Part shown: positions 47,512-52,615 of the stretch, piece by piece
Layout: the number at the start of each line of letters is the position of its first letter
Position numbering within the stretch: the first letter of the stretch is position 1
NCBI GenBank assembly: GCA_007121015.1
Contig: SKMN01000029.1
Location: 1-59,951 of the forward strand
Source of the DNA: Coriobacteriia bacterium
GTDB lineage: Bacteria; Actinomycetota; Coriobacteriia; Anaerosomatales; SLCP01
Reading direction: 5' to 3'
DNA length: 59,951 nt
Translations under genes and position numbers: made by a program
Notes under the pieces: generated by a model
The model's input: only the letters and a program-made list of their open reading frames with translations
The model's database searches: none
Told to the model about the DNA's origin: nothing

Positions 47512-48864
47512 TTACAGATCGATACCGTTGCTCTTCTCCTGGGCCTTCTTGGCCATCTTGGAGAGGAACTCCTGGTTCGAGGCGGTCTGTCGCAACCCCT
47601 TGATGAGCATGTCGATCGCCCGCTCGGAGCTGTCCACGCCGTGAAGGATACGACGCAGGCCCCATACGAACGGCGCTTCCATCGGGTCGAGCAGCAGCTC
47701 CTCTTTGCGCGTGCCGCTCGTGACGACGTCGATCGCGGGGAAGATGCGGCGGTCGGCCATGCGGCGGTCGAGCCTGAGCTCCATGTTACCGGTACCCTTG
47801 AACTCCTCGAAGATGACCTCGTCCATCTTCGACCCGGTCTCGACGAGCGCCGTGGCGAGGATGGTGAGCGAACCGCCGCCTTCGATGTTGCGAGCCGCCC
47901 CGAAGAACCGCTTTGGCGGATAGAGCGCGGTGGAGTCCACGCCTCCGGAGAGGATGCGGCCCGACGCCGGCGTCGCGAGGTTGTACGCACGGGCAAGACG
48001 CGTGATCGAGTCGAGCAGGATCACGACGTCGTACCCGGTCTCCACGAGGCGCTTCGCGCGCTCCATGAGGAGTTCGGCGACGGCGATGTGGTTCTCGCTC
48101 GGCATATCGAAGGTAGAACTCACGACCTCACCGTGGATGGAACGCTCCATGTCGGTGACCTCTTCGGGCCGCTCGTCGACGAGCAGGCACATGAGGTAGG
48201 CCTCGGGATTGTTGGCGGTGATCGACGCCGCGATCTCTTTGAGGATGGTGGTCTTGCCGGCCTTGGGCGGCGAGACGATCAGGCCCCGCTGCCCCTTGCC
48301 GATGGGGGCGATGAGGTCGATGATCCGCGCCGTGAGGTCGTCCTTGCCGCTTTCGAGCTCGAGGCGGAACCTCTCGTCCGGGTAGACCGGGGTGAGATCG
48401 CGGAATTGCTTTCGCTGTCGCACTTCCTCGGGAGCAAGACCGTTGATCGAATCGATGCGCTGGAGGGCAGGATACTTCTCGCTCTCCTTGGGTGGTCGCA
48501 CCTGCCCGCGGATGAGATCGCCGCGCCGCAGTTCCCCTCGGCGGATCTGGGACATCGAGCAATACACGTCGGAGTCGCCCGGCAGGTAGCCCGCGGTGCG
48601 GATGAAACCGTAGCCCTCGGGCAACACGTCGAGGATGCCGCTGATCTCGATGAACCCCTCCGCGCGGATCTTCGCCTCGAGCACGGCGGCGACAAGGTCC
48701 TCTTTCTTCTTGAGCATCTTGAGGTCGAGCCCGAGCTCGGTCGCCATGTCCTTGAGTTCGGGGACCTTCTTCTCCTCGAGCTCCGCCCGCGTCACCGAGG
48801 GCTTGATCTCTTGCTGCTGCTGGCCGCCACCGCGACGACCCCGCTTGCGTGGCCTGGCGCTCAT
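47512..48864 (-). CDS. rho: transcription termination factor Rho
   Basis: This 450-residue hexameric RNA helicase has an N-terminal helical domain ([17 protein letters not shown]), the RNA-binding cold-shock domain ([16 protein letters not shown]), Walker [16 protein letters not shown], and the C-terminal motif [18 protein letters not shown] short basic Arg/Gly then Gln-rich N-terminus ([14 protein letters not shown]) replaces the very long insertions seen in many Actinomycetota. The ATG at 48862-48864 overlaps the transaldolase stop (ATGA). Few intrinsic terminators with U tails are visible in the window, fitting heavy use of Rho. Confidence 0.96.
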
Positions 48865-49523
48865 GAGTTCTTGACCTTCTCCCAGTCGGCGAGGAATGCT
48901 TCCCGTCCCCGATCGCTGAGCGGGTGCTGCACGCACTTCTCGAGCACCCCGAACGGGACGGTAGCGATATCTGCGCCGAGCAAGGCGGCCGACACGACGT
49001 GCTGCGGGTGCCTGACGCTCGCGGCGATGACCTCGACCTCGTGTCCGAAGTCGTAGTTGGCGAGCGCCGCGATCACGTTGCCGAGGTGCTCGATGCCGTC
49101 CTCGGAGATGTCGTCGAACCTGCCGATGAACGGCGAGACGTACGACGCACCCGACCGGGCCGCGAGCAACGCCTGCGGCACGGTGAAGCAGAGCGTCATG
49201 TTGATGCGGACGCCTTTCTCGAAGAGCGTGCGCGTCGCCGCGAGCCCCTCCGGCATGGTTGGCACCTTGACGACGACGTTGGGGTGGAGCGCCGCGAGTT
49301 CGACGCCCTCGGCTACGATCTCGTCACGCTTGAGCGTGACCGTCTCGGCGGACACGGGCCCGTCGACGATCTCGCAGATGCGCACGACGTGATCGTGGAA
49401 ATCCGCCAGTCTTCCACCCTCTCGCGCGTAGAGCGACGGGTTAGTCGTCACGCCGGCCAGCACGCCCCAACTTGCAGCCTCTTCGATCTCAGCGATGTTC
49501 GCAGTGTCTAGAAAGAATTTCAC
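48861..49523 (-). CDS. transaldolase / fructose-6-phosphate aldolase family protein
   Basis: This 220-residue small transaldolase has the start KFFLDTANIAEIEEA, GVTTNPSL, the Schiff-base Lys86 in NVVVKVPTM, and VSPFIGRFDD. It belongs to the short TalC/FSA group; most members from Gram-positives act as transaldolases, but aldolase activity cannot be excluded. GTG at 49521-49523 has AGGAGG and overlaps the kinase stop. It links pentose phosphates with rpiB. Its stop overlaps rho. Confidence 0.92.
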   Translation of the reverse strand: MKFFLDTANIAEIEEAASWGVLAGVTTNPSLYAREGGRLADFHDHVVRICEIVDGPVSAETVTLKRDEIVAEGVELAALHPNVVVKVPTMPEGLAATRTLFEKGVRINMTLCFTVPQALLAARSGASYVSPFIGRFDDISEDGIEHLGNVIAALANYDFGHEVEVIAASVRHPQHVVSAALLGADIATVPFGVLEKCVQHPLSDRGREAFLADWEKVKNS

Positions 49524-50476
49524 GCTCCCGATTCCTCCTTCTTTCGGTCGTCCGCGGCGCGGACGACGCCCTGTTCCCCTTCGAGCACGGCACTGACGAT
49601 GTGCTCGAGTGTCTCTGCTACCGTGCGGTCGAGCTGGTGACTGTGGATGACCGGGATCCGGTGCTCCTCGGCGAGTTCCTCTATGTAGTGCCCGAGCATC
49701 CGGATGCTGCCGAAGTTCGTGCGGTACCGCTCGAACGGCCGCAGGCCGTCTGTCTGCACTTCTCGGATGTAAAAGTGGCTCCGATGAGAATCCTCATCAT
49801 CTACCGCGATGACGATCTGGACCACCCGCGCGCCGGGGAAGTCCGCCGCGTCGATGTATCCAGGAACCAGGTGGACCCCCTCGATGACGAGGCTCACGCT
49901 CTCCTTCACGCTGCGCTCGATGAGCGACCTGATTCCCGTGGCCACCGCAGCGGTCTGTTCCCGGAATCCGATGATGACGGGATCCGCGCCGTGGGGGACC
50001 GGGACTCGCAGACTGCGCCACGCATCGAACGCGCTCTCGTGGATGGCGGGCATGAGTTCCGGTGTAAAGATACCACGCATGACCTCACGAATGGAATCCG
50101 TCGATACGAACCGGGTGATACCGATCCGGTGCGCGACCTCGGCGGCGATGGTCGACTTACCCACGCCGGTGGTCCCGCCGATGAGGATGATGAGGGGCAT
50201 GTCGAGCTTGCCGATGGCCGCGAGACGCCGGTAACGGTCCGCGTACTCGGGGCCGACCATGTGCTCGAGGTACTCGGTGGCGAGCGTGCGCAGGCGCGAG
50301 ACCGTGATCGCGAGTTCGTCTCTCTCGCGCAGATCCTCCTGGATCGTCTGTGCGACCGTGTACGCGGTCGACGGCGGTAGCCCCGTCGCGGTGAACGACT
50401 GGGCGAGCAAGCCTTTCGAGAACGGCAGTCCGTGCGCCTTGTCGCTCAGGATTATCGTCTTGGAGGTGTGCGGCAC
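49520..50476 (-). CDS. 2-phosphoglycerate kinase with ATP-cone domain
   Basis: The 318-residue protein has an N-terminal ATP-cone-like domain (about 4-80, KTIILSDKAHGLPFSKGLLAQSF in part) and a kinase domain with the P-loop GGTTGVGKST (100-109), then VSTDSIREVMRG and SLVIEGVHLVPGY. This two-domain layout is that of archaeal 2-phosphoglycerate kinase, which makes 2,3-bisphosphoglycerate. Identity is strongly supported by the next gene upstream, a cyclic 2,3-diphosphoglycerate synthetase, only 4 bases away. GTG at 50474-50476 follows AGAGGAG. The stop overlaps the transaldolase start. Confidence 0.85.
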   Translation of the reverse strand: MPHTSKTIILSDKAHGLPFSKGLLAQSFTATGLPPSTAYTVAQTIQEDLRERDELAITVSRLRTLATEYLEHMVGPEYADRYRRLAAIGKLDMPLIILIGGTTGVGKSTIAAEVAHRIGITRFVSTDSIREVMRGIFTPELMPAIHESAFDAWRSLRVPVPHGADPVIIGFREQTAAVATGIRSLIERSVKESVSLVIEGVHLVPGYIDAADFPGARVVQIVIAVDDEDSHRSHFYIREVQTDGLRPFERYRTNFGSIRMLGHYIEELAEEHRIPVIHSHQLDRTVAETLEHIVSAVLEGEQGVVRAADDRKKEESGA

Positions 50477-50480
50477 GCGA

Positions 50481-51824
50481 CTACGCTCCTCTCTCCGCGC
50501 CTCGCGCGAACGCGAGGCTGGTCGCCTGATCGATGACTGCGTCGAGGTCGCCACCGTCCACGGAGACCGGCACGTTGTCGCAGAGCACCGTGGGCACTCC
50601 GGCCTCCTCGCCGACGGTCGCGACCACGTCGATGGCAGCCGCCTTGAGCTCGGTGAGGAGAACGTCGTATCCACCGGCGTGCTCTTTCATGTCGTCCCGG
50701 AGCAACGAGCGGTTCGAGAGGTTCGCGCTCGAGCCCACGACCGTGCACCCGTACTCGGCCTCCAGGTGGGAAGCGAGCAGGTGCAACACGGGCTCGGGCG
50801 CCGTGGTCGCGAAGAACACCCGCGCACCGTCGACCGGCTCGATGGGAGCGGGCCTGAACGTGGTCGCGACGACCGGGACGTCCGGCCTCATCTCGCCGAT
50901 CGCCTCGGCGATCGCGGCGACCTCGGCGGGTGTGGCGTTGGGCTCCTCGGCGGTCGCGAGGATGACCGCGTCGGCCCGCGCGAGCCTGAACGGGCCGAAG
51001 TAGTCGCGCACGTACGTCATGCCGCGACCCGCACCTACGACGAGGATGTTCGCGTCGGCGTACACCGGTGGTATCGCGGCTCCGGAGCCCTCGAGCACGA
51101 GGAGCTCCTTGCCGAGGGTGTCGGCGAGGCGCGCGCCCTCGGGGACGTTGGAGAAGAACGTCTCGCCCGCCATGCCCCCGCCGCACCGCCTGCAACCGAC
51201 GGTCGTCACGCGGCTCATGACCGCGTCCTCGTAGTTGTCCGACGACGCATGCTTGCCCTGCCGAGCGAGCTCGAGCAGGTCGGGGGTGGAGAGTTCGACC
51301 TCGTCGCCGCGGATGAGTTCGGGCTCGTTGGGGCCTCCTCGGCCCATCGCCAGCACGACGATGTCCCTCCCCTGCGCGGTGAGACGGCGCGCGACGTACG
51401 CCGAGAGCGCGGTCTTGCCCACACGCTTGCCGGTGCCGATGAGGCCGAGGGTGGGCGTGTTGGTGCGCAGCCGGGCGCTCGGGGGCGCGAAGTGGAAGTC
51501 GGCTCCGCGGTACTCCACCCCGTGCGCGAGCGCGAGGCCGGCGTAGCGGAAGCGGTCGGCGGATGTGACGACGGGCTCGTCGGAGAGGTCGACGACCGCA
51601 CACGGCTCGTAGCGCTCGATCGCGGCGACGATCGCCTCCTCGGCACTCTCGCCCGTCACGAGCGGCACGCCATAGGCGTCGAAACCGGAGTCGAGGTCGA
51701 CCTTCTCGGTCCCGCCGAGGAACACGGCCGCCGCCACCTCGTGCTCGGCCGAGAGCGCCGCGAGGGCGAAGCGGACGACCGGAGGGTAGTGCTCGCCGTC
51801 GATGAGCGCGACGATCCGCGTCAT
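50481..51824 (-). CDS. cyclic 2,3-diphosphoglycerate synthetase
   Basis: The 447-residue protein resembles CpgS of methanogens, which closes 2,3-bisphosphoglycerate into its cyclic pyrophosphate with ATP. The P-loop GTGKRVGKT is at 130-138, preceded by an N-terminal domain (RIVALIDGEHYPPVVRFAL) and followed by VVLAMGRGGPNEPELI, VGCRRCGGGMAG and LLVLEGSGAAIPPV. The ATG at 51822-51824 has GAGGTG and overlaps the phosphoesterase stop (ATGA). The product is known as a solute and thermal stabiliser in some methanogens; finding it in this background is unusual. Confidence 0.85.
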   Translation of the reverse strand: MTRIVALIDGEHYPPVVRFALAALSAEHEVAAAVFLGGTEKVDLDSGFDAYGVPLVTGESAEEAIVAAIERYEPCAVVDLSDEPVVTSADRFRYAGLALAHGVEYRGADFHFAPPSARLRTNTPTLGLIGTGKRVGKTALSAYVARRLTAQGRDIVVLAMGRGGPNEPELIRGDEVELSTPDLLELARQGKHASSDNYEDAVMSRVTTVGCRRCGGGMAGETFFSNVPEGARLADTLGKELLVLEGSGAAIPPVYADANILVVGAGRGMTYVRDYFGPFRLARADAVILATAEEPNATPAEVAAIAEAIGEMRPDVPVVATTFRPAPIEPVDGARVFFATTAPEPVLHLLASHLEAEYGCTVVGSSANLSNRSLLRDDMKEHAGGYDVLLTELKAAAIDVVATVGEEAGVPTVLCDNVPVSVDGGDLDAVIDQATSLAFARGAERGA

Positions 51825-52615
51825 GTCATCACCTCTTCGGTCCCGGCACGCCAGCGGCAGTAGCGACGGTTGACGTCCTGGAAATCGGCGACGCACTCGG
51901 CATCGTTGAAGGGCTCCTTGAGCAGTACGCGGACGCGCTGGGAATCGTAGACCTCGATGATGTTGTAGCAGGGCCTCACGTTACCCCGGAGGCGGTGCGA
52001 GCACGCCGTGCCGGCGTTGACGATGAGCATGTCTTCAAGTCGCCACACGTTGGGCACGTGCTTGTGTCCGCAGAGCACGAGGTCGGTTCCGCAGTTGGAG
52101 AGTACGCGCAGCATGTCCCCGGCATCGTAGACGATGTTGCGCTCGCGACCGGTCCCCGGCACCGGGACGAGATGGTGATGCATACAGATGACCCTGAACT
52201 CCTCGGGCTCGTTGAAACGCTCTTCGACCCAGCGATACCGCTCCCGGCCCACTCGCCCGGAATCGAGATCGGGCTCGCTCGAATCGATGCCGAGCAGGCG
52301 CATCCGGTCGACGACGAGCTCGCGGCTCCGCGCGCCGAACAACTCGCTGAAGTGCTCGTCGCCGACGTTGCGGGCATCGTGGTTGCCCATCAAGACGAGC
52401 CGGTGCTCGCAGCCGATGCGGTCGAGCAGCCGCTTCGCCTGGCGGAACTCCTGCCTGAACCCCATGTCGGTGAGGTCGCCGGTGACCACCACGACATCGG
52501 GACGCAACTCGTTGAGTTCGTCGATGACGCGCGATGCCAGGCTCGGGATGTGGTACCGCGAGCCACAGTGCAGGTCCGAGATGTGCGCGATGACGAGCGG
52601 TGACCTCTCGCTCAC
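51821..52615 (-). CDS. calcineurin-like metallophosphoesterase
   Basis: This 264-residue dinuclear-metal phosphoesterase has the full motif set: DLHCG, GDLTD, GNHD, MHHHLVP and GHKHVPN. It resembles the CpdA/Icc cyclic-nucleotide phosphodiesterase group, but the substrate is not clear. It overlaps the cDPG synthetase gene, so hydrolysis of cyclic 2,3-diphosphoglycerate or a related phosphate is a reasonable hypothesis. GTG at 52613-52615 has AAGGGG 5 bases upstream. Confidence 0.87.
   Translation of the reverse strand: MSERSPLVIAHISDLHCGSRYHIPSLASRVIDELNELRPDVVVVTGDLTDMGFRQEFRQAKRLLDRIGCEHRLVLMGNHDARNVGDEHFSELFGARSRELVVDRMRLLGIDSSEPDLDSGRVGRERYRWVEERFNEPEEFRVICMHHHLVPVPGTGRERNIVYDAGDMLRVLSNCGTDLVLCGHKHVPNVWRLEDMLIVNAGTACSHRLRGNVRPCYNIIEVYDSQRVRVLLKEPFNDAECVADFQDVNRRYCRWRAGTEEVMT

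Follow-up and report, generated by a model that had tools for sequence, protein, structure and literature searches.

Can a bacterium that is not a methanogen make and recycle cyclic 2,3-diphosphoglycerate (cDPG)? This question is raised by a locus in the genome of a Coriobacteriia bacterium (GenBank assembly GCA_007121015.1), found on contig SKMN01000029.1, of which positions 1 to 59,951 were analysed (hereafter the window). Three genes on the minus strand (49520-52615) encode a metallophosphoesterase (MPE), a cDPG synthetase (CpgS) and a protein resembling 2-phosphoglycerate kinase (2PGK). An earlier note, made from the DNA letters and their translations, had read these genes as a cDPG operon, and at the gene level this interpretation is supported by the CpgS residues, the best family matches and a survey of gene neighbours. 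It is thus probable that the operon makes and recycles cDPG in this uncultured, non-methanogenic bacterium of the Anaerosomatales type.

In papers of 2023 and 2025 cDPG was called exclusive to hyperthermophilic methanogens (PMC10690619, PMC12136491), and in the former its synthetase was described as confined to methanogenic hyperthermophilic archaea. The literature also mentions homologues in Pyrococcus yayanosii and in the ancestors of ammonia-oxidising archaea, as well as 2PGK from Thermus and Deinococcus. A literature search for cDPG or the CpgS/2PGK pair in Actinomycetota, conducted mostly without subscription papers, found nothing relevant. Bacterial homologues may well already bear the name through automatic annotation.

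Identification of CpgS

The predicted CpgS (447 amino acids; 50481..51824, minus strand) aligns in phmmer searches over its residues 3-435 with the cDPG synthetase of Methanothermus fervidus (8ork/8oru; E 1.8e-124), and it also matches the solved cDPG synthetase 9sxb (E 7e-111), which is identical to a Thermococci locus in our CpgS tree. Its identity to archaeal CpgS is approximately 46-48%. In the M. fervidus structure, 2,3-diphosphoglycerate (2,3-DPG) is contacted by K145 and R146 and by E45 and K46 of the partner subunit, Mg by T150 and D208, and ADP by E305, T353 and E404, with K149 and K406 having a charge-shielding role (PMC10690619). All 11 of these residues are present here as E40, K41, K133, R134, K137, T138, D196, E293, T341, E392 and K394 (corresponding, in the same order, to M. 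fervidus E45, K46, K145, R146, K149, T150, D208, E305, T353, E404 and K406). All but E305 are kept in every one of the 80 relatives that has sequence at the given position, and E305 is kept here and in 79 of 81 CpgS sequences; 69 positions of the alignment with the 80 relatives are strictly invariant. A further residue, P335, was not used, since its numbering in the structure paper did not match (F in both sequences). On the minus strand of the window, the alignment places E40-K41 at 51702..51707, the P-loop GTGKRVGKT (residues 130-138) at 51411..51437 and the Mg ligand D196 at 51237..51239 (residue roles from PMC10690619).

Loss of CpgS active-site residues, or best matches of both proteins to another ligase or kinase family, had been named in the earlier note as outcomes that would speak against its interpretation. 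Instead, every tested residue was found, and CpgS and the 2PGK-like protein both match enzymes of cDPG synthesis best. In the CpgS tree, the archaeal sequences (including that of M. fervidus) group together in a single clade (support 98/95), and the bacterial ones fall outside it. As judged by this comparison, the CpgS assignment is secure short of an assay.

Identification of a probable 2PGK

The second protein (P0001; 318 amino acids; 49520..50476, minus strand) matches the NCBIfam models PRK12337 (330 bits, E 2e-98) and PRK04220 (300 bits, E 2e-89). Both scores lie under the curated cut-offs of 603 bits (PRK12337, a longer model) and 343 bits (PRK04220), and the protein is therefore named 2PGK-like by its sequence and 2PGK by its context. 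The copies of Aquicultor and Thermoleophilia are likewise under the cut-off, and one Rubrobacter copy is above it. P0001 is the single 2PGK match in its own genome. The model of mevalonate-3-phosphate 5-kinase scores it at only 82 bits, and this kinase or another P-loop kinase was ruled out by score.

The earlier note had described the protein as composed of an ATP-cone and a P-loop domain. The P-loop part was clear in a Pfam search, but the ATP-cone part was found only as a sub-threshold match (18.3 bits versus a cut-off of 25.8). Thirty-three positions are near-invariant from bacteria to archaea (42 relatives), and the Walker A motif GGTTGVGKST (residues 100-109; 50150..50179, minus strand) is largely among them. 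In the AlphaFold2 (AF2) model (pLDDT 88), the N-terminal part is mostly helical and the core has a P-loop kinase fold; adenylate, shikimate and gluconate kinases are the solved structures closest to this core, and a sequence search of the PDB found no 2PGK structure.

No GpmA-type mutase was found above the cut-off in the genome (best match 23.8 bits versus 81.7), and 2,3-bisphosphoglycerate (2,3-BPG) is therefore not obviously required as a mutase cofactor. For this reason, supply of 2,3-BPG to such a mutase by 2PGK is not favoured.

The metallophosphoesterase

The first gene of the set (51821..52615, minus strand) encodes the MPE (P0003; 264 amino acids), which matches Pfam Metallophos with 68 bits and is predicted to fold as a class III phosphodiesterase; its metal-ligand motifs are intact. 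Its 44 near-invariant positions include D14/H16, G46D47, G77N78H79D80, H146-H148 and G183H184/H186. For the AF2 model (pLDDT 89) the nearest PDB structures are Rv0805 (fold match E 1e-17) and GpdQ. No membrane segment is evident by eye. An anti-phage role, indicated by a match to the NCBIfam model DS9_1 (65 of 420 bits), was ruled out as a superfamily-level match.

The gene of a second MPE paralogue (genome G000, contig 54, 4120-4812; locus L204) is not near CpgS; it adjoins a gene on the opposite strand that, by eye, is CheB/CheR-like. It is this second type that the MPEs adjoining CpgS in loci L192 and L194 resemble more closely.

Distribution in Actinomycetota

Judged by CpgS, the genomes most closely related to this one belong to Coriobacteriia; a soda-lake sediment bin, with 93% identity, is the closest of them. 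CpgS was found in 57 of the 61 genomes of the same order and, apart from two weak matches, in none of the 239 others of the class. In a sample of 397 genomes of the phylum Actinomycetota (with four further weak CpgS matches disregarded), 153 carry CpgS, 153 carry 2PGK (152 in common) and 155 carry the MPE (151 in common with CpgS). The set is thus not an oddity of this genome, but a core and widespread feature of deep Actinomycetota.

The survey of gene neighbours suggested in the earlier note found the three-gene set, with few gaps, in the 38 sampled Actinomycetota families, and in rearranged form in Thermococci. Among 60 CpgS loci of these families, 2PGK is linked in 56 and the MPE in 50. 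All four loci without a linked 2PGK belong to a single family (f35), of which the Rubrobacter loci seem to be members, and 2PGK is located elsewhere in those genomes. At eight of the ten loci with an unlinked MPE (L010, L011, L048, L143, L146, L153, L171, L174, L177 and L193) the MPE gene is found elsewhere in the genome, and no replacement was identified among the genes listed for these ten. The same gene order is kept in nearly all order-level relatives, and the arrangement is therefore not a matter of chance; in very distant families the set is placed between thrB (sppA) and fsa-rho, and therefore it looks old in the phylum.

Among the carriers are a permafrost (palsa) bin (L040) and sediment bins of Cock Soda Lake (L002, L004 and L005), the sediment of which has 55 g/L salt and a pH of 9.9 (PMC6704655), and the order comprises mesophilic as well as thermophilic isolates (strains M08DHB and Es71-Z0120, respectively; PMC9686372). 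The gene set is therefore not tied to high temperature.

Some entries in the sample are irregular. In genome G113 there are two CpgS matches (contigs C202 and C151), and loci L003 and L032, both from isolate Kmv32, are two loci of one bin with 80% and 69% identity, which probably reflects a mixed bin or a second copy. The CpgS loci of 'Aeromicrobium sp.' (L043) and 'Slackia heliotrinireducens' (L049) resemble those of Anaerosomatales or other deep Actinomycetota, and these names are probably wrong.

Archaeal gene clusters

In 99 genomes of the archaeal phylum that includes Thermococci and Theionarchaea, CpgS was found in 81, 2PGK in 83 and the MPE in 86, and at least ten genomes lack all three. 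The MPE of Thermococci and Theionarchaea is a tandem, two-half protein of approximately 505 amino acids with a degenerate second half, and its gene adjoins 2PGK/CpgS. The N-terminal half is 36-43% identical to P0003, with which it shares the unusual segments RNVG, DS.PD..GR.G, HHHL.P.P.TGRERN and GHKHVPN. At some loci of Thermococci the MPE gene is convergent with its neighbours; at others, as also in Theionarchaea, where a CBS-domain gene intervenes, the genes are co-directional. The three families are thus linked and occur together in two domains of life, and linkage in a changed order across both is good evidence of shared function.

A CBS-domain protein of approximately 140 amino acids is encoded directly before the MPE in loci L139, L140, L135, L136, L214, L217 and L218, which represent Thermococci, Theionarchaea and other archaea, even where CpgS is located elsewhere; a possible function is the sensing of adenine nucleotides for the pathway. 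In clusters L209, L210 and L218 there is a phosphoglycerate mutase-like gene (recognised by eye), the product of which would supply 2-phosphoglycerate (2PG) and which fits a pathway fed by this compound. A single-domain archaeal homologue, 44% identical to P0003, is encoded in L211 (G305:C30:6497-7168) between the gene of a PstS-like phosphate-binding protein and a PhoU- or AbrB-like gene (by eye), a placement that hints at a link with phosphate supply.

Proposed pathway and alternative explanations

In the proposed pathway, 2PGK would convert 2PG, an intermediate of glycolysis, and ATP to 2,3-BPG, from which CpgS, with a second ATP, would form cDPG, ADP and inorganic phosphate (Pi) by closing an internal phosphoanhydride; a mechanism of CpgS has been proposed (PMC10690619). 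The MPE, probably produced from the same transcript as the two other enzymes, would hydrolyse cDPG (or its precursor 2,3-BPG), whereby carbon and phosphate would re-enter glycolysis. Three points are inferred from the sequences: the activity of the enzymes, cDPG as their product in this cell and the exact substrate of the MPE.

Several observations weigh against this reading. The 2PGK scores lie under the curated cut-offs, as given above, and the co-occurrence counts in Actinomycetota with their Fisher p-values (~1e-102 and ~1e-109) ignore shared ancestry, and so state only that the genes are almost always together. The genome carries the second, unlinked MPE, which is 50% identical to P0003, and five archaeal genomes (G304, G305, G306, G317 and G318; loci L206-L210) have genes for 2PGK, the CBS-domain protein and the MPE with no CpgS detected in the genome, an argument against an MPE function restricted to cDPG. 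Moreover, the solutes reported in extracts of Pyrococcus furiosus and Rubrobacter are mannosylglycerate, di-myo-inositol phosphate and trehalose, cDPG not being among the standards used (PMC3505630). Thermococcales carry CpgS and 2PGK, and Rubrobacter carries the genes too; accumulation of cDPG to the level of an osmolyte is therefore not to be assumed.

The earlier note had stated that the phosphoesterase might degrade the product. Given the co-occurrence (151 of 153 genomes) and the linkage in two domains, the tie to the pathway is stronger than this wording, and the MPE very probably belongs to it. Hydrolysis of cDPG by this enzyme appears an evenly balanced proposition, and action on 2,3-BPG is conceivable, if somewhat doubtful. 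These estimates are kept restrained because of the CpgS-less archaea that retain the MPE and because of the second, unlinked MPE in the genome.

It may accordingly be asked whether the synthetic enzymes are as named and the MPE is a 2,3-BPG phosphatase, or a safety valve for 2PGK, and not a cDPG hydrolase. This is a serious, though tentative, alternative: it would agree with the five archaeal genomes without detectable CpgS, in two of which the cluster adjoins a mutase-like gene, and with the nearest solved structures, Rv0805 and GpdQ, both phosphodiesterases that open P-O-C bonds. However, these genomes are small, maybe incomplete and from few lineages, the MPE of Rubrobacteraceae still adjoins CpgS though 2PGK has moved away, and it is CpgS that the MPE gene overlaps in the window. 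An unlikely explanation is that 2PGK makes 2,3-BPG as a cofactor or metabolite, CpgS and the MPE merely limiting its level, so that cDPG never accumulates. The other solutes reported for Thermococcales and Rubrobacter would fit, and a conserved hydrolase partner implies turnover, but the genome has no cofactor-dependent mutase above the cut-off, and CpgS spends ATP in a reaction described as exergonic at cellular concentrations and as favouring cDPG (PMC10690619).

A change of substrate in both bacterial enzymes, to another vicinal bisphosphate and hence a different pathway, seems quite improbable. The degree of identity to archaeal CpgS would allow some drift, 2PGK scores below its cut-offs and mevalonate-3-phosphate 5-kinase is among the related models; yet the residues that contact 2,3-DPG (E45, K145 and R146) are invariant, both enzymes are kept together in 152 of 153 genomes and both match cDPG enzymes best. 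Finally, the literature describes the pathway as archaeal, and the contig might have entered a bacterial bin as a contaminant from a methanogen or another archaeon. This is hardly credible and was ruled out by the bacterial flanks (hom-thrB-sppA on one side and fsa-rho on the other), the uniform GC content (~66%) and the position of bacterial CpgS outside the archaeal clade, and the same gene order is found in tens of other Actinomycetota genomes.

Organization of the locus

The host genome (1.94 Mb, 98% complete) contains the window as contig 51. The minus-strand run leads from the MPE through CpgS and 2PGK to a gene for an Fsa/TalC-type fructose-6-phosphate aldolase/transaldolase-like protein (48861..49523; TIGR00875, 255.6 bits, above the cut-off), with overlaps or gaps of 4 bases, and then to rho. 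The MPE and CpgS genes overlap by 4 bases (51824-51821), CpgS and 2PGK are separated by 4 bases (50480-50477), and 2PGK overlaps the aldolase gene by 4 bases; the positions, the CpgS/2PGK spacing and the MPE/CpgS overlap given in the earlier note proved exact on re-checking. The start codons are GTG for 2PGK, ATG for CpgS and GTG for the MPE, the last with GAGGAAGG upstream. Upstream of the set are sppA, thrB and hom, and the GC content is even. A scan of the locus for promoters and terminators gave no signal beyond chance.

The aldolase gene is probably part of the same transcript as 2PGK. It holds its position between 2PGK and rho in distant Actinomycetota (cpgS-2pgk-fsa-rho in L010, L048, L143 and L177), which does not imply a role in the pathway.

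Physiological role and significance

In methanogens, cDPG has been linked to heat protection, osmotic balance and the storage of phosphate and energy (PMC10690619, PMC1224877). In the bacterium studied here it might serve, at a guess and with equal likelihood, as a K+-balanced osmolyte in a saline habitat or as a phosphate or energy store. An anionic solute balanced by K+ would be suited to saline and alkaline surroundings, and a turned-over store fits better with the constant presence of the putative hydrolase in nearly every carrier. On a broader scale, and more speculatively, cDPG could be widespread as a metabolite among deep-branching and largely non-thermophilic Actinomycetota, acting as a turned-over phosphate and energy store (and possibly also as a K+-balanced osmolyte in saline habitats), with the conserved MPE as the missing cDPG hydrolase, which these bacteria would share with Thermococci.

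The main interest of these results lies in the distribution of the genes and in a testable candidate for the missing hydrolase. The set, with intact CpgS active-site residues, is present in more than one third of the sampled Actinomycetota, including permafrost and soda-lake lineages, and therefore cDPG genes cannot be bound to extreme heat as a general rule. For cDPG hydrolase, an orphan activity, there is now a gene candidate backed by linkage in bacteria as well as archaea. Both matters are open to direct testing, since the order and Rubrobacter each include members that can be cultured. The cDPG synthetases of non-hyperthermophiles may also be of practical use in producing this extremolyte.

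Comparison with known systems

The CpgS described here shares with the M. fervidus enzyme near full-length homology and the contacts to ATP, Mg and 2,3-DPG, including the N-terminal ones to the partner site, but it is that of a bacterial non-methanogen, the near relatives of which come from saline, moderate-temperature or permafrost habitats and are not hyperthermophiles. Similarly, 2PGK shares the conserved P-loop and, as far as the sub-threshold ATP-cone match indicates, the layout of archaeal 2PGK (PRK04220/PRK12337, COG2074), from which it differs in scoring under the curated cut-offs and in being only ~35-40% identical to the archaeal copies found.

The MPE shares the metallophosphoesterase fold and metal motifs with the class III phosphodiesterases Rv0805 and GpdQ, but is only ~22% identical to them, has segments of its own (RNVG, DSSxPD and HHHLxPxPGTGRERN) and occurs nearly always with CpgS/2PGK. 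The reaction proposed for it is that of the cDPG hydrolase of Methanothermobacter thermautotrophicus, which is known as an activity that is membrane-bound and inhibited by K+ and Pi (PMC1224877), in contrast to the MPE with no membrane segment evident by eye; no gene for this hydrolase was found in the literature, searched mostly without subscription papers.

A parallel in gene arrangement is provided by the cDPG clusters of Thermococcales (Pyrococcus yayanosii PYCH_14390-400; PMC4890121), in which cpgS is also located beside 2pgk and, in Thermococci loci, an MPE of the same subfamily is found nearby, although this MPE has two halves, is often preceded by a CBS-domain gene and differs in order and strand. 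Compared with these systems, the operon of the Coriobacteriia bacterium is best described, from its sequences, as a bacterial and widespread variant of a known pathway with a conserved phosphoesterase.

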